The translations under genes and the position numbers were made by a program. Positions 9,144-64,000 of a stretch of DNA of 64,000 nucleotides are shown piece after piece (position 1 is the stretch's first letter; every line of letters begins with the position of its first letter). The notes under the pieces were generated by a model that saw nothing but the letters and a program-made list of their open reading frames with translations, did no database searches and was not told the origin of the DNA. The stretch covers positions 125,305 through 189,304 of the forward strand of contig NW_025934628.1 of NCBI RefSeq assembly GCF_000764305.2, given 5' to 3'. Origin of the DNA: Hyalella azteca. Lineage: Eukaryota; Arthropoda; Malacostraca; Amphipoda; Hyalellidae.

Positions 9144-12100
9144 ATGGATGACGACGTAGAGAGAAGAGAGTCTCTGGCTGCCTACAGAGCTGCCCGGATG
9201 CCTCAATTCGTCGCTGCAATATCAGGCAAGTACCTTAATTATGGTCCAAATATTATGTAGATTTTATAATTACATAATGGAACGAATCATAATGTTTTTG
9301 CAATAAACGGGATACCCATGTTATAAACGCCCATAAAAACACTTTCAAAAGGAATTATAATGGTAGCCGGCAGCAGAAATACCTAGTTTGTTTCTTAATT
9401 ATATTGGTAACATATATAAAAAATAGTCATAACGAAGAATATGCAACAAGGTATCCTGGAAGCATCGAAGTTCCCAAGCCTAAAATAGCAATTTTACTTG
9501 TCTCAATAATTTTAATTTTTAAGTTTCAGCAATGATTCACAACATATAGCAAATTCAATTTATCGCTCTGTTCGCAATTTGTTGAAACTTTATTCTCTCC
9601 TTTTAGGAGTAAATAAGCATAAAACTATGCTGAAAAGAAGGATGACATCATAACAGCAGACAAAAGGTTTCTCACACTGAACGCCCATACCAGCAGATGA
9701 AACCGTAGGCGATAGATATCAATGGTGGACAATTAGAGCATAATTATCAACAAGCGGAAAGTTGCTAAGTTTTAATACTTATTATTGAACTGCTACCGGA
9801 ATAATTAAAATATTTTGGAGATTTAATCGCTACTGCTGAATTTGACTGCAAAATTCACTTGTATTGTCGACCACACATAAATTGTAACCTAAGTGTCCGC
9901 GAAGTATATACCCTTCGGAAGATACGCGTTCTCAAAACATTTTTAATTTACATGCCAGATTGATAAATGTTAAAGTAAATATGATGGAAATTAATTCACG
10001 TCATCCTGACTGATTAATGGCAAGGCAAATTTAACCATCCCATACTGTGATGAAAAATAATTCATATCATCCTTAATGATGAATTGTAGAATGAGTATAT
10101 AATACAACCTCATATTTTAGTAAAAACAAATTCACACTATCCTGATTGATAGTTGATTTGAAAATGCGATTGTGACCACCTCATATTTTTTTGCAAAAAA
10201 ATAAAAATAAAATAAAGTTCCATCATCCTTCAGCTTGTATTGGCGCCGTGGAGGTGGGCGCCATCTTGGGGTACTCATCGCCTGCGGGTCTCCAGCTCAC
10301 CTCAAGAATGAACTCCACGACGTTCAACGCTACTGAAGGGATCCACCTCTTCGACGACACGTTCTTCCTCAGGAAGCGGCAGATGGCGTGGGTGTCGTCC
10401 GTCGTGAGTCTGGGGGCGCTATGGGGAGGACTCATGGGAGGAACTGCCCTCAACGTCTTCGGCAGGAGAGGGACAATGCTCTTGTCACTCGTACCGGCCG
10501 TTATTGGATGGCTTCTGATTGGTGATGAACTTTTTATGTTATCTAAAATTGTCATGAACTAATAACTATAAAAGTTGCAATAATTTAAACTTTTTGCTAG
10601 TTTTCAATTTGGCAACTATGTGAATTATTACGCTGTTTAATATCTTACTCTACTATTATTAAAAAAATAAAGTGTTAAGCAACCGGAATAGTAATCGACA
10701 CTGCAGCATTCACAGAAATAAATAAGTATTAATTTAAGATAAGGAACGGTTTAGGCTGCTTGTCGAATAATAATTATTAGTCGCTTACACTTGATTTTGA
10801 TACATAATGCAACTTTCAGGTTACGATGAAGTTGCTCGGGCTAAAGAAAATATCTGAAATTTAAGAATCCCGTATTCAAACTGACTTCTCTGCTTTCTAA
10901 TCATTTTTAGTGAACGGAAAATTCCAGTAAAAACACGGAAAATCCAGTAACCCAGCGTGAAATAAAGAAAGAACTGTTTAACTTCATCTTCAACACAGAA
11001 CCCCGGGGCCTGGTGTGTCCTGCAGCTCTGGCAGTGAACTTCACGGTGCCTTGTTATATGTCCTGCAGCTCTGGCAGTGAACTTCACGGTGCCTTGTTAT
11101 ATGTCCTGCAGCTCTGGCAGTGAACTTCACGGTGCCTTGTTATATGCCCTGCAGCTCTGGCAGTGAACTTCACGGTGCCTTGTTATATGCCCTGCAGCTC
11201 TAGCAGTGAACTTCCCAATGCTGCTGGCTGGCCGGATCGGCACCGGAGTCTTCGTCGGCCTGACGTGTGTGAGCGTCAACACGTACATCGGGGAGATAGC
11301 TTCGTCCGACATCAGAGGAACACTGGGTGGGACTGCCTGCCTTCAATTTACTCGTTAATTTTGAATTAAGAGATTCGCAATATTCTCAAAATGCGATGCG
11401 ATTCAGCACACACATGGAAAAAAGTTTGATTTTTGATGCTATGCTTTATGAAATATCAGGTGATTACTTTAATATGTTTCAAAAAAATATAACTCAGTAC
11501 TCACTGCAGTGAGTGACAGAGAGCGCATTTTCTCGTCGACGAAAACGTGAAGTCACGGACGGGCAGACAGACGGACGGATATGACGAGCACAAGAGGGAG
11601 ATGAGAAAATCCAAATCCATTCCATAAATGAGAAAATACTTTAAAAATAATAAGAGATGATGTCAATATCATCAAGAAGTCAATCTTAAGACTTCCTTCT
11701 CAAATGTAATAGAAAAAAGCCATTTGAGTTTAATACTGATTATATTAACGTTTATTAAAACTCTTAATTCTCTCGATAGGCTCAGGCTTCCAGTTGATGG
11801 TGAACGCTGGTTTCCTGGTAGCCTACTCGTTCGGCATCATCTTGGACTGGTATTACTTGGCGTTCCTGTGCATCTCGATACCGCTGCTGTTCACGGTAGC
11901 CATGTTCTTCAATAAAGAGTCGCCGGTCTACCTGCTCAGTAAAGGCAGAGACCAGGAGGCTCTTGAATCTCTCAAGTTCCTAAGAGGTGCTCGCCTTGAA
12001 GAGTCGAATAAAATTTTGGCGTATGAAATATTTATCTTGGTTTAAAATTAGCAAGTGCCTAATTAATGTTTTTTCGACTATTTTTACGATTCTATAATTC

Positions 12101-15100
12101 TCGTGTTTGCAATAATGAGCTTGTTATCGTTACACAATATCGTTCGTTTCAAATTTTGAGGTATGAAATGGCGTCCAGTGATGATGAACAGACTGGAAAA
12201 GGTTCTTATGTAAATCGCCAGATTTTGCTTACATTGGATGGGATTCGCGTACTACTGAGTATCAAAATTATTGTATGAATGAAATGAGTACGGTTTCTTG
12301 GGGTGAAACCGCATTCCAAGATAATCAAATAATTAAAGAGTGTGGTCTTTTTTGCTGCGGCAACAGGTCCAAATAACCGAAACGACGGTGGTTTCTTTTG
12401 CTCTGTACCCCGGTCCGAGTAATAAAGTAAATGAAACGTGTAAAATTTTATTTGCTTGGATCGCAGGTCCCAATAATTAAAATAATCAAACGAGTGCGGT
12501 TTCTTTTGCCGCGACAAATGATCCCATTTATTTTGCTGGGATCGCAGGTCCCAATAAATAAAAAAATCAAACGACTGCGCTTTCTTTTGCCGCGACAAAT
12601 GATCCCATTTATTTTGCTGGGATCGCGGGTCCCAATAAATGAAATAATCAAACGAATGCGGTTTCTTTTGCCGCGACTAGTGATCCCATTTATTAACTAA
12701 GTGAAGCGTGAACGATTATTTGTCCGGTACGACAGGTCCCAACTACCCCGTCCAGTCAGAACTGCGCAACATGCGCCTCGCCCTCCACGAGCGCAACACC
12801 AAGCAGGTTCACTTCACGGAGCTCTTCCTCACGCCCCACCTCGCGCGCCCCTTCATGGTGTCGGTCACGCTCATGTTCTTCCAGCAGTTCTCGGGGGCCA
12901 ACGCCGTGCTATTCAACTTATCAACCATATTCAAAGTAAGCACGATTGCCTATGAATCAACGGTAGAAAATTGGCACAGTATTTTGCATGGCTGCAGTCT
13001 GCCGCGGAATTGTTCCTCATCCAGTTTCTCCTGAATTTCAATCTTTTCATCTGCGTTTTCATGAACGAATATTGTCCTTTCAATTCGTGAGTGATGCAGT
13101 TACAGAACAAGTTTATTACGAATAAAAATCCACTATGCTTAATTATATTTGCAGCGAGTTACTGCGTTGGAATAATATCTCAGAGTGACGAATGCAAATG
13201 AAATCATTGACAGTATGATATAGCAACGATTGCAACATTTAATGAAAGGAAAGCGTTCAGAACCTCTAACACTTGAGATGCACCTTTTTGCAAGGTTTTT
13301 ATATTGCCAGAATTTTCAGCATAGACTAAACATTTTTCGTTTACGCCGTGACACTCTAGTGTGTGTCTGTCAATACCAATACGTTTTAAATGCACTGTAT
13401 ATTGCATTTTTAGAGTGCCGGAACAGACATACCCGAGTCCCTGAGCTCGGTCATCGTCGGCATCGTGTTCATCTTGGGGACGTTCTTAAGCTCCATCGTC
13501 ATCGACAAAATTGGACGTAAAGTCTTGCTCAGCATCTCTGCTGGCATGATGTGCATCTCTCATGGTCAGTACATCCTAAAAGTTATCTTTATTTTGTATA
13601 AATAGTTTCTTAATTGTAAAGTTCGACAGTGGAATTTAACAATTAAAGTTAAATAAAGAGGTCCTTAATAATTAAGTTACTGTCGATTTACTCATAACGG
13701 AGGTAACAGAGTTGTTATTAGCCATTACCTTCTTATCTCCAAATGGAAGGCTTCAAAGCAAATTTTACACAAGCATCGTTTTCAGTTCATTACGAAACAC
13801 TTCTTTAGTTCATCAAGATATGTTGCCCTTACGGTCATGATATAGTTGTGAGTTATTGAAAAATTATTCTCTCTTCCAGTTGGCCTGGGCTACTTCTTCT
13901 ACCAGTTGGACTACGCAGAAAAATGGACGTTGGAGACAATTCCCTGGCTGCCGCTGTTGGCTCTCGTAGTCTTCATGTTCGGCTTCGCAATCGGCTTCGC
14001 GCCCGTGCCCTGGCTGATGATGGGTGAGGGAATAGGTTGTACGCTTGGGAAGTCAGTGATGAGGTACGGGATGTGATTTGCAGTAAGAAAACTTGCCAGA
14101 TCCGACCATAGACAAAGAAAATAGCGAAAAGATTTGATTGTGGCCTACATACGTACATCATAACAAGTTTCATGGTTTGATAAATTTATTTAAAAAAAAT
14201 CAACGCTGACTGAGAGTTTTATGATGGTTCATATTTTTTTGTTAATTTGGAGATGATGGCTTCGTTTGAACCAGACACCTTTTTGTGCACGCGACTACAC
14301 TATTATTATTGGTGCTAATTTCTACATCAGTGTGTCGTTTGAATCCATATGCGTGATAAGTGCCTGGGATTACGATATTCTCATTACATGATAGAGATTA
14401 CAACTTAATTTGGGGCATGGTGGGAAATATGTGCGTAATTTAATAATTCAATAAATTACATAGCAAATGTTGATCCCAAATAGTAAATTGTCCATAATTG
14501 GGGGCAGGGTGGCCCAGTGTTTAGAGTTCACAGAGTACCAAGATTGGCGCAGAGAGGCGCGGGTTCGATCCCAGCTCTGTGCGCCAGTTTCTGGTCAGAA
14601 TCGGCAAGGAGGCCGGGCGGTTAAGCACAGCAGAATTGGAGCAGTGATTTGCATGTTCGAGACCGCAACAAGCTGTGAATCTTCTGCGCTGTAGAGAAAC
14701 GGTAGCAGGCCTACGGCCTAATGAAAGCCGAAACCGCTATATTTCTTTCTATTCTAAATCATTAAACAGAAATTCTCAAAATTACCATCATGAGCGGCAT
14801 TCATAAAAGTTCTCACAGCTCTGCTATGTACACGCTTGCACCGGGTAAGATTAGTCCAAAACCCGCGCATTAATTACGTCATTTTATTATATTATTATTT
14901 CACTTCAGGAGAATATTATATTATATTAGAATAATTAGATTCTCCTGTGTAATAAAATATTATATTATTCCACAAACAGGAGAGCTCTTCTCTTCGGAGA
15001 CCCGAGAGTTAGCCTCCTCGATGGTGACGGCCGCGAACTGGTTCTTCAGCTTCGTCGTCACCGTCACTTTCGAATATATTCAGGTGAGGTGCCAATTAAT

Positions 15101-16185
15101 TATTCACTATTCATTATTTATTCATGTTATTTATGTCAAATATTCATGATTCATCATGAATCAAATTATTCATGATTCAACACTAAAAGATTCAAAACTC
15201 AAGGAGGAAGTCAACGCACTCTACTGCACTGAGACTAAGTAACTAAAAACGACTATCACTTACAATAAGTGCGTTGAATTTATTAATAATGAAACATTCG
15301 ACTTTTTCACGTTACTGAAGGATACGTGTTTTAAACTGACCAATCGAGGCACTAAATTTTAACGGCCAATTGTACGATAATTGCACGTTGATATAATAGT
15401 TAGAATAATTTCATTCAATTTTCTGACTTCACACCAGTTTTTGCTTCCAACTCTCATCATCTCATACACAGAACTCAAATGTATTTGAAGATTTCATTGC
15501 GATTTTCCTAACAAATAATTTTCGTTTCTTCGTTTAAACATAACATGTCGGATTTATCAATCGGCCAGGCGCGAGTCAATCGTTTGATAATAAGACAGAC
15601 ACTATAGATGACATATGATATATATTTATTCATTTATTTATCCTGCATCTAGATTGTCATCTTGGATTTCGGCGATTGTCATCGGATTTTCTGGCTTCAC
15701 ACCAGTTTTTGCTTCCAGTTTTCATTATCTCATACACTGAATTCAAATGAATTTGAAGTTCTATGAAATAATAAGAGATTTCGTTGCGATTTTCCTAACA
15801 ATTAATTTTCGTTTCTTCGTTTAAATTTAACATGTTGGATTAATCAATCGGCCAGTCACCAGCCAATCGTTTGATAATAAGAAAGACACTATAGACGACA
15901 TATGATATCAATTTTTGATAATAAGAAAGACACTATAGGTGACATATGATAGGTATCCATTTATTAATTTATTTATCCTGCGGCCAGATTGTTATCTTGG
16001 ATTTCGGCGCATATTGGATGTACGCGACCATTTGCATGGCGGCGCTCGTGTTCTCTGCGTGCATCGTGAAGGAGACCAAAGGCAAGGACCTGGAGCAGAT
16101 CATGGAGATGTTCGGTGGTCCTAAGGTGGTGATGGTGATGCCTCAAACTGCTGAGGCACGCACTGCACAACCTCTCTTGTCGTGA
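9144..16185 (+). CDS. Tret1: Facilitated trehalose/sugar transporter, Tret1-like (SLC2 family)
   Basis: Nine exons: 9144-9225, 10234-10521, 11204-11326, 11780-11986, 12736-12935, 13414-13564, 13880-14023, 14980-15083 and 15988-16185. Phases agree throughout, giving 498 residues, normal for the family. It predicts a 12-helix plasma membrane sugar facilitator. Family marks are the first helix with GAVEVGAILGYSSPAG, the GRR loop (VFGRRGTML), AGRIGTGVFVG, QQFSGANAVLF, the second loop DKIGRK, FAPVPWLMMGE, and the C-terminal VKETKGKDLEQI. Arthropod Tret1 proteins move trehalose; the substrate here is inferred from resemblance only. Intron 1 has a GC donor. Acceptors of exons 3, 5 and 9 are embedded in tandem copies of themselves. 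The gene converges on MRE11. Confidence 0.9.
11018..11232 (+). repeat. 43-bp array over the exon 3 acceptor of the transporter
   Basis: Units start at 11018, 11061, 11104 and 11147; the fifth (11190) is the real acceptor plus exon start. Each unit carries a TGCAG-CTCTGGCAG-TGAACTTC core. The working copy has CTCTAG then CAGTGAACTTCCC. Exon 3 begins at 11204, so the first 11 coding bases are repeated in every unit. Confidence 0.9.
11488..11640 (-). mobile_element. Foldback short interspersed element, copy 2
   Basis: Reverse orientation inside transporter intron 3. It contains the intact palindrome ACTCACTGCAGTGAGT and a (GGAC/AGAC)n tract. The outer arm is damaged (AGAAAATACTTT). Confidence 0.75.
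12290..12745 (+). repeat. About 81-bp array leading into transporter exon 5
   Basis: The element CAGGTCCCAA, which is the exon 5 acceptor and first coding bases, recurs with AG at 12366, 12466, 12547, a damaged copy near 12628, and the real one at 12735. The central units are exactly 81 bases. Because 81 is a multiple of three, the array is open in several frames on both strands, which creates false open frames. Confidence 0.85.
14499..14740 (+). mobile_element. tRNA-derived SINE, family A
   Basis: It lies in transporter intron 7. A-box region: GGGTGGCCCAGTGTTTAGAG. B-box region: GCGGGTTCGATCCCAGC. The body contains TCTGGTCAGAATCGGCAAGG and GGCCTACGGCC, ending in a (TTTCTTTCTATTC) tail. It is the best reference copy for the family in this window. 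Confidence 0.75.
15419..16009 (+). repeat. About 270-bp tandem duplication over transporter exon 9 acceptor
   Basis: The first unit ends with a copy of the exon 9 border: TCCTGCATCTAG then ATTGTCATCTTGGATTTCGG at 15641-15672. The true border is at 15987/15988 with the same 22 bases except one change. Upstream anchors shared by both units are CACACCAGTTTTTGCTTCCA and CAATCGGCCAG. The second unit has a further small internal duplication (TTGATAATAAGA...CACTATAG). Confidence 0.85.
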
Positions 16186-17033: not shown

Positions 17034-20000
17034 TTAGTCAGAATCGTCGTCGTATGCGACACCCCTCCTGCCTCTAGACGAACTGGCTGGCGCTTTGCTC
17101 TGAAATGAGGAAATAATAATGAATACAAGATGTATTGTCAAGCTCATGGTTTTTACTCATGGGTAAGCTCATTGTTTTTACTCTGAAATGAGGAAATAAT
17201 AATGAATACAATATGTATTGTCAAGCTCATGGTTTGACATTCGGATGATTATCCCTTATTTCAATAATGTTGCTCTATTTAAGTATGCTAGAACTTTTAT
17301 ACCTCAAAATGATTGACAATTGGAAAATGTGTGGCAATTGATGGACATCAAACGAGCCAAATACTACACAAACCGTTTAAGAATGCTTGCTTGCTTGATA
17401 GCTCTTGCTTGTATAATATTGGGAACAATCCTAATATTATCCAGAAAGAAATTGTTTATTTTCTTCATTCTACGTGCGAAAAATCAGAACCATTCATTTG
17501 GGTACATAGCCCGTCACCGCAGCCCAACTGAGAACAACAAACATACGAAGATTTCATTGATATTAATCCAATTACACACGCATTATCTTGGCTAGCACGC
17601 GATAGGTGTCAAAAATTCTAAAAAGGCTGTAACTATGAACTGTTGCAGAGTGAGAACCTAAAGAAGCAAGAACTAAGTTTATCTGTACGCAATAATTGAT
17701 ATAGGTGAAAAACTAGCGTGATCGCTAAGGAAGCAAGAACTAAGTTTATCTGTACGCAATAATTGATATAGGTGAAAAACTAGCGTGATCGATCAAGCTT
17801 CAGAAAAATTCACATGTTTGAGTCAATAATAATATACAGAATAGAATTAATAAATTATCTACATAGTTGGGAAATTAATATTTACCGCAGAGCTGCTGAA
17901 GCTGGAGCTGACGTTTGGACTTCGAGTGTTCCTACCGAAGTGAAAACGTCAATATCAGGAAAATTTATTAAACCGTGCATAACATGGATAAAATATAATG
18001 ATTAAACATAGTAATGATCGAGTTAGTCACGAATTTATGGAAGCTGTGTTCCGCTGATACATTATAAAATTGATTAATGAGGCAAATTATAAAGGCTTCT
18101 TCTAAATGATGGGCCCAATCAATAAATTCGTATTTATTTAAATTTAAATTCAAAATAAATAATTTCTACACCAATTGAAAGAGAATCATTTAATTTTTTC
18201 ACAAGTTAATAAATGTTTAATATGTGCTGCACGGCAAACATGTAAACGGTAGCAACATAATTGTTAATATAATATAATATAGTATAATATAACATAATAT
18301 AATATAATATAATATAATATAATATAATAATATATGTTACTTCCGAGGTCAATGCGTGTACAGCGGGCAACTAATTCTTTAACAACAAATGTTTATTATG
18401 TTTCATTACGCACTATGGAATTAATTTATATTAAGCGTCAATACGCATACTAAAATATATAGTGTCACTCACGACGCCAGCCCTCAGCACTCACCACGAT
18501 GAGGAGCTACTCTGCACGGGGGCGGCGCCCCGCCCCCGGGCGCCCCTCGTACCCCTGGCGCCCCTCGTACCCCTGCTGGCACGGGGGGCGCGGGCCCCTC
18601 GGGCGCCCCCTCGTCCCCTGCCCCGAGGAGGGGCGCTGTAATGGTCGTCGTCGCCGCTGCTGCACTCCGCGACGTCGTCTTCATCGTCGTCATCGTCGCG
18701 CGATCCTCTGGTGGGCGCGCGACGGCGGCTGGCTGCCCCGAGCACCGCCTCCGCCTGCCGGTAAATGTGGGTAGTGTTGAGGCAGTAAATGAGGGTAGTA
18801 GTAGGGAGAGGTTTCTAGCGCTTCAGATCAGTGTCGTCTATTTCGCGCCGAAGGTCCAATATTCGTTTTGCAGGGTCGGCAGGCTTCTTCGTTGGTTTCA
18901 GGCTCGTAGCCTGATCCATCTGGTCTAGGGTGTATGCTTCTTTATTTCCAAGGCGCAGGTTCTATCCGTCTTCTGCTATTTCATCTCAACCAGTAATATG
19001 ATGACGCGAATATGACGTCTTGTCGGAGGTGTGGGTCTTTTCTGACCTCTGTCAAGGTGCCGTGCTAGATATCTGGCAGCAGGTTACACTCGATTAGGTA
19101 TTGTCTAAGGTTGTCAGTTCTAAAGGTGCTTCGGGGAACTTCCCTGAGCATAAGTGTTGAGGCAGTAAATGAGGGCAGTGTTGAGGCAGTAAATGTTGAG
19201 GCAGTAAATGAGGGTAGCAGTGTTGAGGCAGTAAATATTGAGGCAGTAAATGTTGAGGCAGTAAATGAGGGCAGTGTAGAGGCAGTAAATGTTGAGGCAG
19301 TAAATGAGGGCAGTGTAGAGGCAGTAAATGTGGGCAGTGTAGAGGCAGTAAATGTTGAGGCAGTAAATGCAGGGTAGCACGGAGGCACATTTCAATGCAA
19401 TACGTTTAGTTACGAGAGCATGAATGGATGTTAAAAAGCTTGACAATTATTTAAGCTCGCACTGATAGCTTGCATATTACTCAGCATGGCAAGTATGAAC
19501 GAGATTCGCTATTAAAGGCTTCAAATTTGTTTGTACATAAATCATTAAAATAACATAAATAAAAATGTATTATCATTTTTGTTCAAAAGCATTGCTTTTA
19601 GTGTGCGACTTCTGTCAAATTTTTTGTGTGATTTTATAATTTCAAGAACTCGTTCAGTTAGAAACATCGAATGCCACTCAAAGTTGTCCTCACCTCAGCA
19701 GCCTCCTGCGCCTCGTTGTCTCGACGCGCCAGCCTCTCGGCCAGTAGGCCACTCAAGTTGTCCTCACCTCAGCAGCCTCCTGCGCCTCGTTGTCTCGACG
19801 CGCCAGCCTCTCGGCCAGTAGGCCACTCAAGTTGTCCTCACCTCAGCAGCCTCCTGCGCCTCGTTGTCCCGACGCGCCAGCCTCTCGGCCAGTAGGCCAC
19901 TCAAGTTGTCCTCACCTCAGCAGCCTCCTGGGCCTCGTTGTCCCGACGCGCCAGCCTCTCGGCCAGTAGGCCACTCAAGTGCCACTCAAAGTTGTCCTCG

Positions 20001-23000
20001 TTCACGTCCTCAATGGCGGACAGCTTGGCCATTGTTCGTTCCACTTGGTGGCTGAAACAATCAAATTTCGGTATATATACTAAACCTTCCTCGAAAATAT
20101 ATGTAATGCAAAAATACAAAACGAAAGTTTTAATTTTTTAACTGTTAACTAGACCCATGTAAAATTTTAACCCAAAAAATAATCTCTTGCTAAACTCAAC
20201 CTGAAGGAGCTATAGTCACTTTAACTCATGTCACGGCATTTAATGCAGACCAAGTAATCGTTTTGCTGGAACTATCTGATGCCCATTTATGGAATGTTTT
20301 GGTGAATGCGAAACGTATGTGGATTCATAATAAAATGATAATCAAATCCGTCCAAGAACAATTTGTCACCATCACACGGGAATGCGATAAATCACGTACA
20401 GAAAGAAAGATACACGAAGCTCAAGAGAAACCGTGAGAGTTCGCGTTGAAAGACCAACTAGCTAAGTTTGAAGTGATCTAAAGGCATCAAAGCAAAAAAA
20501 TTTCCAGCAGTATTCGATTAAGAGAGGTCTGAAAGAATTGCCTTCGTTGTCTGTCGGGTGGTGAGAGGCCGAAAGAATTACATTTGGTCTCAAAAGAGCC
20601 ATAAATTATATGTAGAATATCAATTAAGAGCGATTTGAAATCTATAAGAATAAGACAAAATATGACAGAAAATTGAGCTCAAGACAACGAACAAACGCCT
20701 CTGCAATATTTCTGTCAGTATTTTTGAATGAGAAATAGCAATATTTTTGATGATAAATACCTAAAGATAATTTGAAAGATACGATGATAATAAATACCAA
20801 ATAATACTACCGAAAGAAAGCTGTCACGTGACCGGCATAAAAAAAATTCACAAGCCAATAAATAATAAACAATTCAATAAAGAAGCCGCCAAACAACAAA
20901 CACTAGTTTGGGAGTTAATTCAACCATTGAAGTTTACGGTGCAAAGTGAAGATTCTGAATTAAATTATGAAGTCAATAATTTGGATTTAAATGCATATAC
21001 TGACTTGAGAAAGATAGAACAAAACAAGATGGAATGGAAGAATACGTTATTTCTTTGACGTACATCAATAATTAACACACTACACGTCACCAACAACCAT
21101 AAACTACTAAATCTTGAGTAGAGGATTCTGAAGTGTGACAAGCGTAGAAAAAGCAATAGATTGAACTTGAAGACAAACGTGGATAGAACTGTGTTTTATG
21201 TGATAAGTATGTCTTAGCTATAAATTCCGTATTAAATACCTTAGTTCTCTAAACACACCAATTAAGTATAAGAAAGATGAATTTACATGTAATAAAAACT
21301 GGTGAAGCTGAAGATGAAAAACGTATCTCCCCAATCATCTCGTTAACTATAAATAATAATAATGTATATTACTTGAAAATTTCAGCAATGGCTTCTTTGT
21401 CATCTTTCTCGACAAAGCTGGAGAAGGCTTCGGACAGGCCGCGTTCAGTCAGGAGTTGCAGCTGCTGCGAGCTGTCGCTTGACAGCTCCAGGAAATACTG
21501 CCGCACCAAGTCTTCAACTTTGCTCTCGCCCACCTGCTCACATATAATAATGTTAGCTCCAGGAAATACTGCCGCACCAAGCCTTCAACTTTGCTCTCGC
21601 CCACCTGCTCACATATAATAATATGCAAAAAATATATAACTCAGGACTCACTGCAGTGAGTGACAGAGAGCGCCTTTTCTCGGCGACGAAAACTTGAGGT
21701 CACGGACGGACAGACAGACAGACCAACGGACGGACATGGCGAGCACAATAGTGCATTTTTTCCATAAATGAGAAAATGCGCTAAAAATACCTCACACCAG
21801 AGGGACGATGCTATTCTAGTCTCATTACTGTTTCTTACTGCTTCACGATAAATATTTTGCAAGATTTCTTTTGAAAGATAATAAATATCCAGTGAAACAT
21901 TATATACATTTTTTGCACAATACTATTCGTTGAGAGATTCTGATTTATTTTGAGGGATTTCCTTAGAGAGGCTATTATTTTGTAGCATAAAAAAGTTACA
22001 ACTGAAAAAAGGGAGAAACTGAACAACCATGCAGTTGAATTGTTCTATACATCAATAATTAATCAAAAAGATAAAAGCTTGTCGACATTTCTTAAATTTC
22101 TGAAGGAAATATTGAGAAACAATTGTGATAAAGATATGTTTCTGTTCTGTCGCTGTATCAGGGAGCAACATGTCGCTTTGAAGACGTTCAGTCAGCGCTA
22201 AGTCTCAAATACAACAGTATTTCTGAAGGATAAATCTCCTTTCAACCCTTTCCTCTAAATGCCGAGTATAAGCTCAAAACTCGTAATCCTCCAAGACTCA
22301 TTGGTATAAAAAAAGGTCTTTTTTGATACCTCAAAAAATGTATCAAAACTCAGAATCCTCTAAAAGAAGTTACCTTTTTTATTAACAAACGTGATGCTTA
22401 GTTGCTTCTTTCCTGGGGCATTAATGCTAGTTTCATCACATGACATCTGGGCCTATACTTTCAAAAAAAGTTAAGAGATCGTAAGTTCATCAGCCAATCA
22501 TTGACGGCCTTTCAAGCAAAATCCACCAATCATAGACAAGAAAATAGAGCGTAAGTACTTACGTTCACTTAGCGAGTTTTGAAAGTATAGGCCCCTGCAG
22601 GGGCCGTATTATCATAACTTCGTAAGTACGCAAAATCGACGTACGAGTGGCGTTGCTATGACAACGTAATACTAGCGGTGGTATTATAAAAACATTTGCG
22701 CGGGAAAAATTTGCGCGGGAAAAAAATTTAGGCTTTTAGCTATGACTTGCGTACGAAAGTTTTGATAATGCCAAAATTAGGGTGTATTTACGTACCACAG
22801 AACTTTTTTGTCGTAAGTACAAAAAGTTACGAGGTTTTGATAATCCAGCCCCTGTGCAAGAATCAAAAGGTAACTCACGTCTTCGAGAAAGACGGCGTCC
22901 ATGGCTTCGTTGTCGATGCCTTCCTTGCAGGCTTTCTCGGTCTTGCGTGCCTTGCGGAACAACAGGATCTCGTAGGCGTTGGCAACTTCTTCTTCAAACC

Positions 23001-26000
23001 TAAAGAACAGACAATTTAGTTTTTATTATGAACAAACAACACAAAACTCTTAACTACATGCATTATGAAATGGCGAACAAAAATATTTGAATAAGCCTTC
23101 AACTTTGACACTAATATGAAATTTTTACATGTTTGGCATTGAGCTCAATGATTGTTCAGGATAAGTTTTGTATCACAAAAAACATTAGAAAATATGATAA
23201 CGGAACAAATAGGTATATGAGGAATTAAAGTATATTAATGAACTTAGGTTATAAAGGTTTGAATTACTACATTACATAAATTGAAACGACCTTTAAAGTG
23301 CTTGCTTCACTAGAACGCTCAACAGTTTTTAAAATTTACATGGTATAAAAGAATGCAAACTAATATCCGGTAATCCAAAGACATATAAAATACTATGTTT
23401 CTCTCGGTCAACAAGGGAGGACTGAACTATCGGCATGGGCATAGAATATTCAAAGCAGGAAATTGAGAAAAACAATAAAAAATTATGTTTTTCTTTTGAA
23501 TTTGTTACCCCAGCGAGAAAATTATGTTTGTGTTCAGTAGAATAGAGTAAATACACCGAAAAGACTATTTTAATGGCCAGATTCTTGTTCGCATGGATGC
23601 TCACGCTATCAACTCTCAATTCAAGAGTTGAACTGTCATGCATCCAGAAGAGATTTGCTTGTATAGCTAATGAGAAAGGACACAGTCTGGTCAGTAAACA
23701 CTTTACAAAATAAACAAAATAGGAAGAAAGCAAGTCCTGTGGCCACCTGTGCCCAGATCTGATGACATTGATTAGGTCTCGTTCGTTTGTATAATCTAAT
23801 AGCAAAGACATAATAAAATAGACATAATATGAGGAACCAAGGAACAGAAAAGAGAGCATAAGCAACCTGTGGCCAAATCTGATGACGTTGATGAGGTCTC
23901 GTTCGTCTGTATAATCTAATAGCAAAGACATAATAAAATAGACATAATATGAGGAACCAAGGGTCAGAAAAGAGAGTATAAGCAACCTGTGTCCAAATCT
24001 GATGACGTTGATGAGGTCTCGTTCGTCTGTGTAGTCCACCCTGAGTCTGATCAGAGGCTTCTTAGGCTGCCGGGGGTGTCCTGAGCGAGAATATCAGAGT
24101 GAACAAGAGGCTATCAACGCATCAGAGAACAGCGATTTATAACAAATTCTTCATCACTTTCTCAACATATTAAATTAATTCACAAAAATTTAAGAATCAA
24201 TGAATCTATGTATATAAAAAAAAAGAAATTATCCCTTCTTAAATGACAAGAACTTATAAAATAAAAATTTTTGAGCCCTCATTGAGCTAAAAAAAAGAAG
24301 AATTATATGCCAAACTTGTTAAAAAAATTTGTTACCAAAGGAAATAATTTCTAAAAACTAGTTCTATGTATAGGACGAAGAGAAGCCACTCTAGCAAGTC
24401 TGACCGGTCAACTGCTCAAGCGACTCTGTGATCATTTCCTTCACGGTCTTCTCGAGAAATTCTTCCACCAGCGAAGCTCTCACTTGATCAGTAGTTCTCA
24501 CATCCATAGGCACGTTGTCAGCTAGGCTCACAGTCTGTAGAGTGTCATACTGGGCATCTTATTTATATCATTACATATACAAGATAATTTTTAATTTTCT
24601 TTGCAGTTTTTCTCTTTAGAATGAAGACAGCGTATGTTCTCGTCATGAACTGAGTTGTGGCTTACAACCTAATAAAAATTCAAAGCAGTACATCTTGACA
24701 TACTAGTATTTTTTGCGCATTTTCTCATTTTAGTCGTTTATGGAAAAAATGCCCTATTGTGCTCGTCATGTCAGTCTGTCTGTCCGTGACTTTACGTTTT
24801 CGCCGACGAGAAAATGCGCGCTCTGTCACTCACAGCAGTGAGTACTTAGTTACATTTTTTTGTGCTAATGTGGGAAAAAATGCCCTATTGTGCTCGTCAT
24901 GTCAGTCTGTCTGTCCGTGACTTCACGTTTTCGCCGACGAGAAAATGCGCTCTCTGTCACTCACTGCAGTGAGTACTTAGTTACATTTTTTTGTGCTAAT
25001 GTGCGATGAAACATCTCTTTTGAAGCATATTATATAACAATTTTTACCTTAAAAACGAATGGCCGCACAGTCTTGAGTGGCAAGGCTGTAGGTTTAATGC
25101 AGTTTTCCTCATTTATTTCTAGGAGCGCCACGTGCTTTTGAACAGCCTCCCCCTCACACAGCGACGTGGCTACCGAGCTGCCTGCGTGTATGTATTACGC
25201 TTCATTATTTTTAACTTTTCCGTACATGCGCATAACTTTCTTCATATTAGCTCGCTCATGACATCAAGATTGTAGATCAAAGGAAGTAAATCAAAAGTAC
25301 ATACCAGATGCTCATCCAAAAATTCAATGTAATTCATTTGTGCTTGAAATCATTTATAACGTTTTAGCATAATATGAACAGAATGAAAATGAAGCACTGA
25401 ATTGGGAATAGGGTTTGGTTAACAGTTCAACTCAGTTATATATAAAATTTGTATCCTAGAAGACTCTTTTTCTAAGTAATATTTTATTTGACATCAAAAA
25501 AATCAAGAATGTAAGAGCATATGCAAAGCAGCAGACTTCATACAGAAATTTTAAATGTTGGTAAAATTTCATTCAAGCTCAGAGCCTAAAATTCTTTGCA
25601 AGGGTTTAATACGAAATAATCCACGCCAAAAATAGGCAAATATTTCCATTTTCGACAACCTTTCACCCGGATTTGGCATTCATCCAAATGCATGGAAGTA
25701 AATCAAGTAATGCAATAAAAGCTGAAGTCTGATAAGCAAATATTTCCATTTTCGACAACATTTCACCAGGATTTAGCAGAATAAAGGCTGTGGCATGACC
25801 TGGCTGCATCACATGATACTGCTGCGCAGACTCGCGCGGCAGGATTTTACACTCGTGCTCGTGCCCCCAGATGACCAGGTCCAGGAAGCCATCAAGGAAC
25901 TCCTCTCTGATGTAGTTATAAGGCGGACGCTCGACATGGTTCTGGTGCAGCACCAGCACGTTGTACCAGTCGTCGGGGAACTCGCGGGGACGCAGCATAC

Positions 26001-29000
26001 GAACCTGAATTAGTAACATAAATTAGAATTTTGAACGTATATAAGTAATAATGTCACTTGTTTGCTTTAATCGCAAATTCACTAAAAACTTAAAAGCAAA
26101 GAAAACTCCACAAAAATTCTAGAATTTTCGAACTGACGATGGAGCTAGACTCTGAAACGTTTTCTTTAAAGATACTATGAATTTTTGTGGAGTTTTCTTT
26201 GCTTTTAAGTTTTTAGTTAAATTAGAATTTATTGCAGAAGGTAAATGTCATGTTTATAATGTGATTTGAGGAGTATATCAATAACAATGCACAGCGGCAA
26301 ATATTGATAAAATAAGTATATAAGGTAAGAGACTTGGATCTTCAACAAGCTGTGTATTTTGATGTTAATTCATTCTGAAATTTCTACAGGCATTATAGAT
26401 ACAGAATGCTTAACCTATTTCTAATATACTGAATAGCTAATTAGATCTCACAAACAGTCTGTTTAGAAAAGCGACTACGAAATAAATGTGTATTCTACAT
26501 ATTTAATCGCCATGATACAAAAATGTTAGAGACCCCAAAGGGAAATAAAAACTTTCAAGTCATGGGCCAAACAAAATTTAAATATCACCTTTTCTTCTCG
26601 GAAGAGTCTGAAGAGCCTGTCATCCTTGACGGCCGACAGCCCGTACAGAGCAAGTTTAGCTTTACCCTTCACTAACAGAAGCGGCGAAATGTTTATCTCC
26701 TGAAGATTGTTTGCTCTTCCAAAATAGTTAACAAGTCCTGCAGTGGATATCATGTCCAGGGCACAAAAGTGTCCCAAACCTGCACAGTAACACCAAATGT
26801 TAGATTTTGTTTGTTCATTAACTTGCATAATATCATCTTATATGTATAATAATGAAAATTTTCCTACTCCATGGCACTGAAAGAAATATAAGAAAACAGA
26901 AGTGACATTGAACTGTACAATTATTTGCATTGAGAATATAAGACAAAAAAACTTTGTCTTCAGTAGTACAATATTGAGAATGTAAGACAAAAAAACTTTG
27001 TCTTCAGTGCAATATCTTTGAAAATATCTCCAACTTTATTCAAGCCATGCAAAATGCACGAGTTAAAATGATGATAATAACTGCTTACCAGGAGATGGCC
27101 AACATATTTACTCCTGAACATATTCATAATAAACAGAATAAATATGAATAAGATGAGAATAATATATTAAATTAAGAAAAATATTTAATAAGAAAATATA
27201 TTACATTTAATGCAGCAGTATTTATGCTAACCATAATAGTATTAAGTGTCACTCAAACACTACCCAAAAAGTAGAATGACATCTGAAAAAAATGCATAAC
27301 GAGAGAAAGAAAAATATAATTTTTCATAGGAGATGAAATCCAAAACCAAAGGCTAGAGCGAATTTTGCTTGGGCAGAGTTTTAGAATTTTAAGCTATGGA
27401 TGAAATATTTACACTTTGAAAACCATTACAGCACTGTGAACAGATAACTGTTTGCCTTTAATCATAATTAAATTATCTTTTTAGCAGCATAATTAATTAT
27501 GTTTTTAGCTGCAGCTAACAACTGGCAGTTTGGCACGCTTTACTAACAGCCAGCCTCAAAATGCTTCCCTCAAGTCTTTCTCAATATCTGTGTCATAAGT
27601 CATCTTGAAAATGCTTGTAAGTAGACAAATTGAGAAAACAAACTGCAAGAAACAAGAGATCATAGAATGCCATAATTGTCACCACAGTTTTTCTAGCATT
27701 CCCATTCAAACAGAGAGAAACATATACACGAGAGAAAGTGTTACAATCTTAATTACACAAAATTGTCAGTAAGGCAATACACTGCAATCTAACTACCCTA
27801 TGATAGATATTATACACTGGGTATGCAGCACTAAAGGATGGTGGAGAAAATGGCCACTTATATACCATTTAAAAATGTAACTTCTGGAAAAATAAAAAAT
27901 ATAACTCAGTACTCACTGCCGTGAGTGACAGAGAGTGCCTTTTCTCATAGACAAAAATGTGAAGTCACGGATGGACAGGCAGACAGACGGACAGACAGAC
28001 AGACGGACGGACAGACAGACAGATATGGCAAGCACAATAATGCAATTTTTTCCATAAATGAGAAAATGCACTAAAAATGATAAAAAATTAGTATAAAGCA
28101 TTCCCATTCAAAAACAGAGAAACATAAACATAAGAGAAAGTGTTAGTCTTAATTGGTACTCACAATCTTAAGTAATGCAACAGAGTGCAATCTAACTATG
28201 ACAGACATTATACACTGGGTATGCAGCCCTAAAGGATGATGAAGGAAATGGCCACTTATAAATCATTTAAAAATGTAACTTCTGGAGAAAAAAACATTAA
28301 AAAGAACTAGTATAATAAGAAAGTCATCATACCAACAGGGTCGTCGTGATTTCCATGGATGGAGAACACTGGGATGCCAACATTCAAGTTAGGGTTGTGG
28401 AAATTCACCATAGGCTCTCTTAGATGAGGGAAATTTTCAGCAGGATCACTCACAAGCTCAAATTCAACTGATCTGAAAACATAGAATAAATTAGCACCAA
28501 GATGAAGCAGGCAGAAAAACAAGATTGCATGCATGATACTACTAAGGGACTGTATTTGATTTCATCTTTTACATACATTTTTTCCCAAATGAAAAGCATC
28601 CTGTAGAAGGCAAGTCAGATTTAGAAAAATTAAAACTAGTTTCTTGATAAGGAGCCCAGAAAAATCATCTCATTTCATTCACCTTATTTCATAAAAGCGT
28701 AATTACTCATTTCAAGAATAAAACTTTTTTCTGACCTCAGAAATTTAATTTATTATTGGAAATTTTCTTCATTATTAATACAATGTAAAATTGCAATATA
28801 CATACTTGTCGCCAAATGAATAAGTTTTGAGAAGCTCCATGCACTTGACAAGGCACTGAGTGGAGGGCTTGTTGTCATGGAACAGATCTCCACCAAGCAA
28901 CACAAAATCAACATTCTGCTCCACAGCCAACTCCAGTACCTCTCTGAAAGTGTTGAAACTATCACCACCTGTTGAATGAAGGGAGATGAAAGAATTAATT

Positions 29001-42200: not shown

Positions 42201-42548
42201 ATGATTATGATGGATAAAACTGAGTATGTTTTATCCATCAGTAGCGGTAGAGCAACTTGTGATTCAACTCTTGCCATTTCAGGAGGCAACGGTTACGTAA
42301 ATGATTATGTATATATGGATAAAACTGATTATGATTATGATGGATAAAACTGATTATGTTTTATTCATGTAGCGGTAGAGCAACTTGATGCTTCAACACT
42401 TGCCATTTCAGGAGGCAACGGCTACGTAAATGATTACCCAACGGGCCGACTGCTGCGGGACGCAAAGCTTTTTGAGATCGGCGCCGGCACCAGCGAGATA
42501 CGGCGGCTGGTGGTGGGCAGAGCCCTAAACGCCGAGTACAAGGACTAG
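36266..42548 (+). CDS. IVD: Isovaleryl-CoA dehydrogenase, mitochondrial
   Basis: Ten exons: 36266-36364, 36755-36844, 37236-37359, 37703-37800, 38310-38471, 39331-39487, 39646-39739, 40551-40641, 41475-41643 and 42412-42548. Phases agree, giving 406 residues. This FAD enzyme oxidises isovaleryl-CoA in leucine breakdown and passes electrons to ETF. The start [20 protein letters not shown] is basic and suits a mitochondrial leader; an in-frame TAG precedes it. Family signatures are [82 protein letters not shown] and [17 protein letters not shown]. The Glu in LDLERL (about residue 264) is the catalytic base that separates IVD from other acyl-CoA dehydrogenases. The donor of exon 7 and acceptor of exon 10 lie in tandem arrays, as does the stop codon with its 3' UTR. 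Confidence 0.95.
38221..38304 (+). repeat. 42-bp direct repeat before IVD exon 5
   Basis: Two copies of a unit starting CTTTGCCACTTCATATTCCC, ending five bases before the exon 5 border at 38309/38310. Only intron is copied. Confidence 0.85.
38499..38652 (+). mobile_element. Foldback short interspersed element, copy 7
   Basis: It starts 28 bases after the IVD exon 5 donor. AGCGCATTTTCTC, the CCGT/CTGT tract and CACTCACTGCAGTGAGTAC are all present; the inner arm is slightly damaged (GAGAAAATGCTC). Confidence 0.8.
39740..40380 (+). repeat. 40-bp minisatellite starting at IVD exon 7 donor, about 16 copies
   Basis: The unit starts GTGATAGTGATAGCGTGTTA and contains GGGATTAATG. The first unit begins with the donor itself (GG then GTGATAATGATAGCG at 39740). 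Every following unit repeats a GTGATA donor-like start. Confidence 0.9.
40726..41090 (+). repeat. 45-bp minisatellite in IVD intron 8, about 8 copies
   Basis: The unit has CGGCTAACATTCCCGGTATA and ATTAACGGGCTAG. It does not reach exon 8 or 9. A degenerate TTTTGTTGAAACAAT repeat follows at 41330-41470, up to the exon 9 acceptor. Confidence 0.85.
41695..41775 (+). repeat. GGATCACTAAATTAAAT repeat in IVD intron 9
   Basis: Four or so copies of GTGGATCACTAAA with 17-19 base spacing. Confidence 0.7.
42136..42430 (+). repeat. 130-bp array over IVD exon 10 acceptor
   Basis: CATTTCAG then GAGGCAACGG recurs with borders at 42152/42153, 42282/42283 and 42411/42412 (real). Each copy also repeats about 20 further coding bases (TACGTAAATGATTA). 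The decoys run into TATATGGATAAAACTGATTA and a stop. Confidence 0.9.
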
Positions 42549-42807
42549 GCAGGAGCTTTCTGTTGACCCGGCAGTCTGTACACTATGACTCCTAACTCCA
42601 TGTTGACCTTGCACTAAGTCCCTTAAGTACAAGGACTAGGCAGGAGCTTTCTGTCGACCCGGCAGTCTGTACACTTTGACTCTTAACTCCATGTTGACTT
42701 TGTACCAAGTCCCTTAAGTACAAGGACTAGGCAGGAGCTTTCTGTCGACCCGGCAGTCTGTACAATGTAACTCTTAACTCCATGTTGACTTTGCACTAAA
42801 TCCCTTA
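42535..42807 (+). repeat. 91-bp array over IVD stop codon and 3' UTR, three copies
   Basis: Copies start at 42535, 42626 and 42717 with AGTACAAGGACTAGGCAGG, which is the last codons, stop and UTR start. The first copy is the real end of the gene. Confidence 0.9.
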
Positions 42808-45154
42808 ACACTATTTTTTTTCTATCCACTCTTGCGCTTAAAACTATTATTCTGTACACTTAACACCATTTTGTCTAGCGTGGCCTTTTGTACTCAACAA
42901 TTAATCCGAAATATTATTTACACGAAGCTGGGCTAATGAGACGGCCCTTAATTTACACTGTGTGCTCTACAACTGAGAAGTTGTAGAGTGCCACAACAAC
43001 TTAGAAGTTGTAGAGTGCCACAACAACTGCCCCGGGAGTGCAAGCCCCGCCTGTACGAGGAGTTAGCGTCGGAGCTGCAGACAAGGTCCTTGTGGTACTA
43101 TTGCTCCCTCTTCTTTTGAAATCTTTTGGCTTTTATTTTCTCATTTGCTGAAACTCATTATGTTTTCATTTAGGCGATCTATCATGTTATGTCTATTATT
43201 AATTTTTGAGAATTTTAGCGTAGGTCTTCGTTGGGTGTTTTTGTAGCCTAATATTGTTTTTTTATTTGAGATATTTTAGCGCGCATTCGCCTCATATGTG
43301 TGGTAATATCCAGTAGCGTTTCATCAAGTAAATACTAAAACTTTGATGCTCTTGAAGCATTCCTAAATATCATTTGAAAGGATTTATTTTTGGCAAACAA
43401 TAATAATTTGTCAAAAGGAAACTTTCGAAAGGGGTGAGACTTTACAGTTGAATAAAAAATTGGGGGGTCACTGAACGAGGTCTGGCTTAAAAAATTTAAT
43501 TTCAGCTCATTTTAAAATTCATCCAAACAACATTTTGCCTAATGTGAGAAAAAATAAATATTAATTACACGCGGGCAATGACTCTAGGACAAGCATAACC
43601 AACTCTTTGACCGCGGGCAGTGGGGCATGTTCCCATACATGATCTAAAATTAGAGGAATCTTCTGGAGGATCTCGATGACAACGAAAATTTATGTCGTTT
43701 GAAACTTGATGTGAAAGTCGATGCAATATGCCTCAAAATATTGCTTGTAAGATATAGTGGGCCATAATTTCCACTTGGTTTCATTTGGTGGTTCTAATTG
43801 ATACTACTACTATAACACTAGCTTTACTACCGATAGTGATATCTTCGACAGAGTCCTCGTTAAACATAGGTTCTCAATAGAATATGAATTTACGAATGTG
43901 AGGCTCCGAAGACGCTTTTGGTGACTAAAAGTCAGTCTTTTGTTTCTCATAACAGTGGAATCGTACTTTTTGGAAACTTTTGCCATGTTCAGTGTTTTAT
44001 AGATCCTTTTCTAAATACCAAACGGCTTTACGATATATTACTATCTAATTCTTTGCCTGTCATTGCTACGAAAAGTGAAACTTGACACCTCAGAATCTGA
44101 ATTTGAAGTGCGCTAAGTATGAATGGACGCATGGTTGAATGGGTATCAACCATGAATGGACGTATCATACCAGCGGAATAAAACAAGAGTAGAAATGTGC
44201 TCTGTGTGCGGTAGGGCAGAGGTTTGGAACAATCAGGATATCTGAAACAAAAACTAGAAAGGAGGCGAGGAGAAAGAATGAATGGGATACAGGATCAGAA
44301 GGGATTTTTCTTATTGTCTCCAATGGCTAAGGCCATGAACAAATTGTTCTACTTTTCGTTATTTTCCGTGCCGTCGTAGCTTTCGATCAATCGATTCAAT
44401 CAGCAACCGTGTGTCGCTTCATTATATACAATTTCCACTACAGTCACAACAAGGGCCCCTCTGGGGGATAGGCCCTTGTTAGCCTGCCAATGGGAGTCAT
44501 TACCTTGCACTAGGAATCACCTTTTTGAGCAGTAAATCTTGTTCTAATCGCATTTTATGAGTGGTAAATATGTTAAAAAATTAAAGAAATGGTATTTACT
44601 TTACATTCCGTCAATTACTGCTAAATCTATGTGGTAAACCTCATTAAAGTCTAATAAGAACCCAGACATGCAAAAATTGTATGCTGTATGTCCATGAATA
44701 TCAAATAAGCTCTTGTTATATACTGCGCTCAAGTAATTTAAATACGGTCTGAGGTCGATTGGCTTTCAGCATGCTTTTCAACTATTTTAATGAAATTTTT
44801 CATCTCACTTTCCTCCAGGAAATATGTATCATGTATGTCGGGACAAAAATTTAATTCGATAATTACAATAAAAACATTCAGGCTTATGATTTTGGAGCAT
44901 GGAATTCTAACGTATCGTCAACTGTTTTTAATTTCCGCATTTTCTGTGATTTCTAGATTTGGTCCGACATTGTAGTTCCGGCTTATTGGCTCAATTGGAT
45001 TATTGTTATCGCAATTACATTGAAACGTAAGTGAACTTCCTGGAGCAGCAGCCAGCAGTAAATAACCAATTTATTTCGTTTTATTTTGCGTCAGTTGACT
45101 AATCATTGTCTACAACTGCTAAATCATACTAGGTGACCGCGCAATTATTGCAAC
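42808..45154. other. Spacer between IVD and CIR1
   Basis: IVD 3' sequence, a duplicated TTGTAGAGTGCCACAACAAC at 42980-43025, and otherwise unassigned DNA. A GC-richer patch at 43028-43090 can be read as 30 residues but has no splice or homology support. Confidence 0.4.
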
Positions 45155-55962: not shown

Positions 55963-55970
55963 CATTAAAT

Positions 55971-56458: not shown

Positions 56459-56460
56459 TA

Positions 56461-58440: not shown

Positions 58441-58819
58441 TATAGGTTATAAGTTAGGTATAGATAGAAAAATTTATTAAAAATATCTGCAAGGATAAAA
58501 TATCAATTAACAGCAGCAATAAACAATAAACCATGAAAATATGTTGCATTTCATTGATGATAACTTATTCAAAAATTATGTTGTAAAAATTCAGGTGTTT
58601 TTCTTATTATATAGGTATGGTATATATGTGTATTAAGCATGGTTATCAGCAAGAAATAATTATTTCAGTTTGATGAACAGTCACTGTTTTATATTCCAGG
58701 CATATTCTACAGATTACTAAACCAAACAGTTATGAGTAAACATTTATAGTACTTAAGAGAGCTTAAGTAAGTTATTTTATGTTAATTTTTACAATACTTA
58801 AGCACTGAAAGTTGTAGTC
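58441..58819. other. Upstream region of the receptor gene
   Basis: AT-rich; no clear core promoter. The ATG at 58820 is the first in frame after local stops. Confidence 0.4.
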
Positions 58820-61800: not shown

Positions 61801-64000
61801 TGGTTTTACATAAATTTTCAAAATGTGTTCTTCAGTAATGATGTTATTGAATCATTTGAAGTTTTTTATGTCGTCCCTCTTGTATTTGGGTACCTATTAA
61901 AAATAAAAATGGGCTGCAATGTTGTTTTTCAAAGATTTTTTTTTTATTTTCAGGATGGACGACTTCAATGATCCAGTACACATGGAAAGAACTTCTACGT
62001 TGAATTTCTTTCAAGTAAGATTTTCCTTTATTAAACATGGTACATTAATTAGAAATTCTGTGTTGTTTCTAGAAAGGCACATTTGTTTTGACAAAACCTA
62101 CCTAATGAATGTGATGAACAATTGTACTATCTATTTTTTTTAGAAGAAGATTGTAGCACGTTACTAATATTGATTTAATATTTAGTATTTTTCTTCTACA
62201 TTTTAATTTTGGATAGTAATCTAGCTACCTCAATATTGCCGTGTTATTAACACAAGTGTTGCTTTGAAACTTAGGTCGATGACTTGGGCGCCATCTTGCC
62301 ATCAGGAGAGACTAGTAAGAACTACACACTGGAGGACTACTTCATTAATGAGTGGTTAGTGGATACTTCATTAATGAGTGGTTAGTGGATACTTCATTAA
62401 TGAGTGGTTAGTGGTAATGCTGGTCATGCAAGTATGAGTTGTTTGTTGAGTGTTGCTAGCCTTTGAAATGCACTTAATAGTTCTATATGTATATTCCAAT
62501 TATAGTTAAATCAACTTTATTTTGGTACAATAGAAGATAATAGATTTGTTCAATAATTCTATTATAATGAAAAGTAGGTTTGATACAGGGGCTTGTTTTG
62601 ACCCTAGAATTATTGTCTTTTGATATTATGACTGAATATTCAGTTGGAAGACTTAGCAAATTTATTATTATTATTAGCCATGCTAGTAATGCGCCTCATC
62701 AACAAATTTCAGGTATTACTCCTGGCTCCCTCACACCAACCAGCGGCAGGACGGCATCACCACTTTCCAGGTTTGCTGCTGTGATCTTTAATTAGAAATG
62801 TTAATTACAGTAATTATGATGCTGAGAAATATTCATCTTTTTGAGATATGTTTTACTTACATGGCAGATTTGCAGACTGTAATTTCTGTATATTGATACG
62901 AGATACATGGCTGGATACTGCTGAGGTCTTTTTCATGTTCTCTATGCCTCAGTCTTAGTAATGAGTGTGACAAAATTCTTTGTTATGGGTTACGTTTTCA
63001 CTTGTTGGTGCAAATTGGTATCTGCGTTCATTGATCCAAATTCTATAATTTTTTTCATGACACCAACCCCATGTCTTCTCTATCTATCGAGTTTTAATGT
63101 TGCTCCATCTGTCAAACATTCACCTATTAGCATTTTCAATTTGGTTGAACTTCAATCCTAAGTAGGAAGGACATCAATTTAATGAGAAATCGATGTTGCC
63201 ATGTATGTTCACTAGACTAATTAGTCTCAGATTTGTCCTACTGGGTCTGATATATTTAGTTAAATATATTTTTAACTTGAGAATAATGCTATACTTACTA
63301 GTAATGATAAAAAAATATTACTTACACTCACAAACATTGCTTTGTATAGTGAAGGCTGGAAATACAATACCGTATCCAGGGTATTTTCAAGGCACATGTT
63401 TTCACAGAAGTTAAACATATTAAATTATACCATATGGTCATTATATTTTCTTTTCTATAAAATTATAATTCTACAGGAATGAACATGTGTGCTTTATCAA
63501 CCTAATGCTAAAGCCTCCACAATGTTGTGATTCAGGTGAAGATTCGCTACGCAAACAACACAAATGAGACGTACGTGTTCCATGGCCCCAATGCTGCTGA
63601 TGAAAAACCTGGCCCCGTGAAGTTCAACCGTCCGTATTACGACTGTGGCCGCAGCAACAAGTGGAGCGTGCCTGCCGTGTCACCTATTGGTTAGTTCTGC
63701 TAATAATGTGACTCCAGGTCCATCTAATAATGCAACTCGAAGATGAACCTGGAACGGTTATTTTTACACTGTAATATGTTTAGTAAATTGTAAAATCTCC
63801 AACGAGTGTTAAATTAAATTTCACAGACCTAATAGATATTGAATATGGATTAACTGTTAAGTTTCTGATCTTGGAAATTTTTACTCCTTGCCATCGTGTA
63901 GCTAAATGGACTAATCTGCTGTATTTCGCCATTATGCTGAATTATTGACCTGTGAATCTCTTTATTCAGCCGACCTGTACCACCGACACACCGCTTTCCG
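58820..64000 (+). CDS. GPR158/CG31760-type orphan receptor, N-terminal part (open at window end)
   Basis: Eight exons so far: 58820-58978, 59810-59984, 61505-61697, 61954-62014, 62275-62354, 62713-62770, 63536-63689 and 63970 onward, all in phase. The start has a hydrophobic signal segment (WWGVLLWFVWVLMVAAQ). The rest is an extracellular domain with several N-glycosylation sites (NRT, NES, NSS, NKT, NYT, NNT, NET). Motifs NAYELDPGFMYYFLSCVADV, PLFAPRAFRMDDFNDPVHME, VKIRYANNTNETYVFHGPN and RPYYDCGRSNKWSVPAVSPI resemble the Cache-like ectodomain of Drosophila CG31760 and the class C receptors GPR158/GPR179. The seven-helix part lies beyond the window. Function is inferred from resemblance. The exon 5 donor is tandemly repeated. 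Confidence 0.75.
60635..60940 (+). repeat. (GTTGTT)n tract and GAGCTGTCTGTACCT repeat in receptor intron 2
   Basis: A GTT/GTA run at 60635-60690 is followed by six copies of AGAGCTGTCTGTACCT(G/A)A at about 30-base steps, 60755-60940. Confidence 0.8.
62339..62416 (+). repeat. 26-bp array over receptor exon 5 donor, three copies
   Basis: A unit beginning ACTTCATTAATGAGTG then GTTAGTGGAT starts at 62339, 62365 and 62391. The real donor is at 62354/62355; two identical donors follow at +26 and +52. 26 is 2 mod 3, so later donors shift frame. Confidence 0.9.

Follow-up and report, generated by a model that had tools for sequence, protein, structure and literature searches.

Tandem arrays of the kind described here are known from amphioxus, where the same structures were termed 'mirages' and occur in the globin, Adh3, TnC and PGBD5 genes (PMC3087553, PMC3902484). 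In these genes, units with lengths between some tens of bases and about 160 bp extend over splice donors or acceptors, many copies carry the AG or GT, and normal mRNA is reported despite the copies; RT-PCR for globin and data for Adh3 suggest normal splicing, and the arrays were proposed as material for intron gain. Furthermore, the tandem duplication of proto-splice sites has been reviewed as a source of introns (PMC3443670), and intron gain by tandem duplication was proposed for Drosophila (PMC2891723). In this model, a local tandem duplication including AGGT doubles the splice signals, and the mRNA stays the same provided that splicing uses the correct copy. Small tandem duplications are also known to arise from the fill-in repair of staggered breaks by 53BP1-Shieldin-CST-Pol alpha, in which tens of bases are duplicated in place and microhomology is rarer than in polymerase-theta products (PMC8355091). 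Regarding crustaceans, tandem repeats are given as the largest repeat class (6.18% of the genome) in the report on the amphipod Trinorchestia longiramus (PMC7062882), and repeats with units >8 bp are described for Daphnia pulex as far less common in introns than elsewhere (PMC3152781). A crustacean case of border-spanning arrays was not found in the literature among the matches listed.

The window analyzed here, i.e., a stretch of 64,000 nucleotides from Hyalella azteca, shares with the amphioxus genes the range of unit lengths, the position of the units over donors and acceptors and the repeated AG or GT. In contrast to the mirages, the arrays belong to an amphipod crustacean and not to a lancelet, their splicing is judged from DNA and protein models, and their rate at exon borders was compared with that in introns and is not raised. 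They also differ from the AGGT-based intron gain outlined in PMC3443670 and PMC2891723, since existing introns are lengthened in the Hyalella window. Moreover, the window is unlike Daphnia pulex regarding intronic repeats with units >8 bp (PMC3152781). The Hyalella arrays are a crustacean case of structures already known from amphioxus, and the control against the intron rate makes them mundane in this window.

Five genes were considered. The models of the transporter gene (exons 2-9) and of the IVD gene (ten exons) are 100% identical over their whole length to the NCBI H. azteca proteins 'facilitated trehalose transporter Tret1' and 'isovaleryl-CoA dehydrogenase, mitochondrial', respectively. 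For MRE11, encoded on the minus strand, decapod MRE11 proteins with 57-60% identity were the best relatives among the matches listed, and none of the best 120 of 5530 matches was named as an H. azteca protein; the model was compared with decapod proteins only, four of which entered the junction alignments. The CIR1-like gene shows a match to Pfam Cir_N. For the receptor-like gene, which may encode a GPR158-like receptor, the joined exons 2-5 gave no PDB match and the piece comprising exons 3-5 gave no Pfam match; its joins past exon 3 are not phase-consistent. The donor of Tret1 intron 1 is apparently a GC site at 9225 (TATCAG^GCAAGT, with ^ marking the cut), which agrees with how the NCBI H. 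azteca protein begins.

Screening of the window with TRF yielded 48 rows, which after merging by hand cover 7.8% of the window. Most of the arrays located at borders are contained in this list; the duplications at Tret1 exon 9 and at MRE11 exon 13 (exon 14 in an earlier note on this DNA) are absent from it, and the unit at IVD exon 10 appears as 25-bp sub-arrays only. The following features were recorded at or near exon borders:

11016-11214, plus strand: 43-bp array of 4.6 copies spanning the acceptor of Tret1 exon 3 (cut after 11197).
12447-12694, plus strand: 81-bp array of 3.1 copies in the intron upstream of Tret1 exon 5, ending 41 bp before the acceptor (cut after 12735).
15411-16009, plus strand: diverged local duplications in the region of Tret1 exon 9, with offsets of 268, 287 and 335 bp.
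17085-17270, minus strand: duplication of about 83 bp at the acceptor of MRE11 exon 13, the last acceptor placed; limits set by eye.
19673-19980, minus strand: 74-bp array of 4.1 copies at the donor of MRE11 exon 11 (cut 19915/19916), with four identical GAG^GTGAGG donors.
21484-21622, minus strand: 71-bp array of 2 copies spanning the acceptor of MRE11 exon 10.
23745-24030, minus strand: 120-bp array of 2.4 copies spanning the donor of MRE11 exon 8.
38220-38301, plus strand: 42-bp array of 2 copies ending 8 bp before the acceptor of IVD exon 5 (cut after 38309); not listed in the earlier note.
39740-40372, plus strand: 40-bp array of 15.9 copies at IVD exon 7, starting at the first intron base.
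41326-41467, plus strand: 28-bp array ending 7 bp before the acceptor of IVD exon 9 (cut after 41474); not listed in the earlier note.
42150-42437, plus strand: unit of about 130 bp in 3 copies in the region of the IVD exon 10 acceptor; limits set by eye.
42535-42808, plus strand: 91-bp array of 3 copies spanning the IVD stop codon.
62338-62414, plus strand: 26-bp array of 3 copies at the donor of receptor-like exon 4 (exon 5 in the earlier note); donor base approximate.

A border was regarded as duplicated when a 30-base segment (5 exon and 25 intron bases) found at least 24 of 30 matching bases at one offset of 12-500 bp. Nine borders passed, namely the acceptors of Tret1 exons 3 and 9, the donors of MRE11 exons 8 and 11 and the acceptors of its exons 10 and 13, the donor of IVD exon 7, the acceptor of IVD exon 10 and the receptor-like donor. 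When the demand was raised to 15 exon bases, seven of the 72 placed borders remained, the duplication reaching at least 15 bases to either side of the cut (donors of MRE11 exons 8 and 11 and of the receptor-like gene; acceptors of Tret1 exons 3 and 9, MRE11 exon 10 and IVD exon 10). The MRE11 exon 13 acceptor passes with 10 exon bases and fails with 15, at an offset of 83 bp. When zero exon bases were required, the acceptors of IVD exon 5 and MRE11 exon 12 were gained and that of MRE11 exon 10 was lost. The duplication with the 335-bp offset (15619-15674 versus 15954-16009) includes the Tret1 exon 9 acceptor together with about 20 coding bases.

The observation that started this work, i.e., that exon borders carry arrays in four of the five genes, holds for Tret1, MRE11, IVD and the receptor-like gene, the CIR1-like gene having none. 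The presence of 91-bp copies at the IVD stop codon was likewise confirmed. Donors and acceptors are both represented among the nine borders, as had been claimed. Of the ten array-bearing borders proposed, nine stand and Tret1 exon 5 drops out: its array stops short of the acceptor, which is reached by a 27-base, out-of-register match of 74% alone. The statement that the arrays include coding bases does not apply to the IVD exon 7 array, which by its TRF limits contains none.

In order to compare these hits with chance, the borders of each gene were rotated together (72 placed borders, five genes, one 64-kb window). Duplications were found at 9/72 borders versus 10.0 expected as the rotation mean (P = 0.70), which contradicts the earlier assertion that borders are hit beyond chance, at least as measured in this window by the overlap with shifted positions. 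Requiring 15 exon bases gave 7/72 versus 10.0 expected (P = 0.90), and requiring none gave 9/72 versus 10.0 at 24 matches and 10/72 versus 11.2 at 22 matches. The outcome was the same for the borders of Tret1 and IVD alone, which are confirmed by NCBI proteins (4/34 versus 6.1 expected, P = 0.91), for phase-consistent borders (7/56 versus 9.2, P = 0.86) and after leaving out the receptor-like gene (8/63 versus 9.5, P = 0.79). Assuming independence, the 95% upper bound places an enrichment of about 1.7-fold as still compatible with nine hits.

Whole arrays placed randomly within the same genes led to the same picture, with 8/26 crossing a border versus 8.3 expected, in a set that consists of the hand-merged TRF arrays plus three added by hand for lying at borders and is therefore biased toward enrichment. 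For the TRF arrays alone, 5/25 crossed a border versus 7.0 expected. Moreover, 11/26 arrays lay within 10 bp of a border versus 9.3 expected (P = 0.29). The number of border hits is at chance level because duplications cover about 16% of the introns and borders are dense. For this array-rich window with its closely spaced borders, it is wrong to expect that minisatellites placed at random in introns would seldom reach a splice site.

The distance profile, calculated for 71 borders with the Tret1 exon 1 donor left out, points in the same direction. On the exon side, duplications cover 0.8% of positions more than 60 bp inside, 3-4% at 15-60 bp and 9.0% of the last 15 bases; on the intron side, 11.8% of the first 15 bases, 13.5% of the next 15 and 15-17% beyond 30 bp are covered. 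Coverage thus climbs from the exon interior across the border to the intron level of about 16% without a peak at the border. Only one merged array with a period of at least 15 lies wholly within a placed coding exon, i.e., the 18-bp in-frame repeat in MRE11 exon 12 (18534-18575), which is Arg-Gly rich.

Based on these results, it is proposed, with a probability of roughly 0.8, that local tandem duplications are very common here and land on exon borders by chance. What the data show are the arrays themselves, the lack of border enrichment in the window, the depletion in exons and the fit of the inner copy to the protein. In the proposed course of events, a segment measuring tens to hundreds of bases would be duplicated in place, probably during the repair of a staggered break, and the array may then enlarge by unequal exchange. 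Since fill-in repair was demonstrated at engineered breaks in mouse and human cells (PMC8355091), we infer its action in an amphipod by extension. Within an intron, a duplication would have no consequence. Across a splice junction, the exon-adjoining copy would give the old mRNA and the extra copies would turn into intron, so that the duplication would be tolerated. Inside a coding exon, it would be selected away unless the frame is kept. The copy actually spliced in the cell would then be the inner one. The length of the self-match is an integer multiple of the unit, with a tolerance of 4 bp, in 10/21 arrays and is not in 6/21, the remaining 5/21 having gaps or being too diverged for this measure; this would fit a birth without long pre-existing repeats for many arrays, as in fill-in repair, followed by growth in whole units.

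The protein alignments were inspected at seven junctions, MRE11 12/13 and the receptor-like junction lying outside this set. No alignment gap was observed within 5 residues of Tret1 2/3 and 8/9, IVD 7/8 and 9/10, and MRE11 8/9 and 11/12. The seventh junction, MRE11 9/10, has a gap of one residue at a distance of 2 residues in the alignment with one of the four decapod proteins; here the Hyalella model is the shorter sequence. Judged from these alignments, the copy adjoining the exon body is the copy matching the protein, e.g., at Tret1 exon 3 and for the last copy at IVD exon 10, and an insertion from an outer copy was seen at none of the seven junctions. Border duplications apparently leave the protein unchanged. 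Of the meanings offered in the earlier note, 'intron growth by local duplication' is an apt description: a border-spanning copy adds a unit to the intron, and the protein is as in relatives at the junctions tested.

The 31 extra copies at the nine borders were scored with a splice matrix built from the other sites of the window. In 13/31 copies the signal exceeds that of the used site or lies at most 0.5 bits below it; these comprise three of the four copies at Tret1 exon 3, all at MRE11 exon 8 (two), exon 10 (one), exon 11 (three) and exon 13 (one), one of two at IVD exon 10 and both at the receptor-like donor. At IVD exon 7 none of the 15 extra copies reaches this level, with 12 retaining a weaker site and 3 having lost it, and the single extra copy at Tret1 exon 9 scores below the used site. 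At 7/9 borders the nearest copy lies at an offset not divisible by three (43, 335, 71, 74, 83, 40 and 26 bp), so that use of the outer copy would shift the frame; the offsets of 120 bp (MRE11 exon 8) and 129 bp (IVD exon 10) are multiples of three. In the 120-bp unit of MRE11 exon 8 the frame stays open, and splicing from an outer donor would lengthen the protein by 40 residues for each copy. These strong extra sites count against explaining the arrays by chance alone, which does not account for why they would be ignored.

A uniform duplication rate is also challenged by the distribution of arrays along the window, which is denser in gene spans (period of at least 15: 23/31 versus 15.6 expected, P = 0.006; at least 20: 16/23, P = 0.051; at least 24: 16/22, P = 0.029), an excess that rests mainly on MRE11 and IVD. 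It may reflect transposon-rich intergenic DNA. Alternatively, H. azteca could have an unusually high level of local tandem duplication, concentrated in transcribed DNA, with a transcription-linked process that grows introns and copies exon edges; we consider this unlikely. If it were true, the border copies would be its visible by-product and would continually supply new introns and splice competition.

Exon edges might instead be hot spots at which duplications are born through transcription, splicing or replication, with selection trimming the net rate to the intron level. Such a hot spot, partly masked by selection, would give the same picture as chance, and it accords with border copies at donors and acceptors alike and with the higher density of arrays in gene spans. 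However, a process directed to edges should yield a peak at the border, and the lack of one speaks against it; a fine balance of birth and removal would be required, and the TRF consensus units look unrelated by eye. This reading is distinctly improbable, and the idea that arrays start at exon edges found no sign in the data.

In favor of assembly errors, affecting the arrays or their copy numbers, some copies are nearly or wholly identical, as in the 26-bp receptor-like array (100% matches) and the 74-bp MRE11 array (98%), and draft assemblies handle such repeats badly; for one amphioxus mirage, an aberrant assembly in the draft genome is reported (PMC3087553). However, copies elsewhere have diverged: they match at 90-94% in the arrays of IVD exon 7, of MRE11 exon 8 and of the IVD stop, and at 86-90% at Tret1 exon 9. 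Divergence of this kind would not arise from simple mis-joining, and the protein models across the arrays are intact. Assembly error is very unlikely as an explanation. The earlier argument from differences between copies holds for the diverged arrays and is weaker for those with near-identical copies.

That selection keeps the arrays as redundant splice sites or for regulated alternative splicing is scarcely credible: the 13/31 strong copies, including all those at MRE11 exons 8, 10, 11 and 13 and the receptor-like donor, and the two offsets divisible by three would suit it, but borders are not enriched over introns, the 15/15 copies at IVD exon 7 and the one at Tret1 exon 9 are below the used site with 3/15 having lost it, and 7/9 offsets shift the frame, so that the redundancy once suggested shows no sign here.

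With chance duplication as the preferred reading, splice sites need not attract duplications in any special way for border-spanning arrays to arise, and a high rate of duplication together with selection in exons suffices in this window. The comparison of borders with introns could equally be applied to the amphioxus mirages. Furthermore, the window offers natural genes in which two to four identical splice sites follow one another, and these can be used to ask how the spliceosome chooses among them.

Some further observations concern the gene models and introns. Compared with all four decapod proteins, the MRE11 model has an excess of five residues at the junction of exons 6 and 7 (25048-25181 and 24405-24549), where no array is located; this may indicate a misplaced splice site or a longer protein. 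MRE11 exons 12 and 13 join out of frame. A 67-bp tandem pair inside MRE11 (17658-17791) ends in a possible acceptor (TTCTTTAG^GTTCTC), and a small exon flanked by this array may be missing between exons 12 and 13. Finally, runs of GTCC/GTCTGTCC with similar flanking sequence seem, by eye only, to recur in introns (24742-25003, 27973-28023 and 38547-38585) and possibly represent a mobile element.
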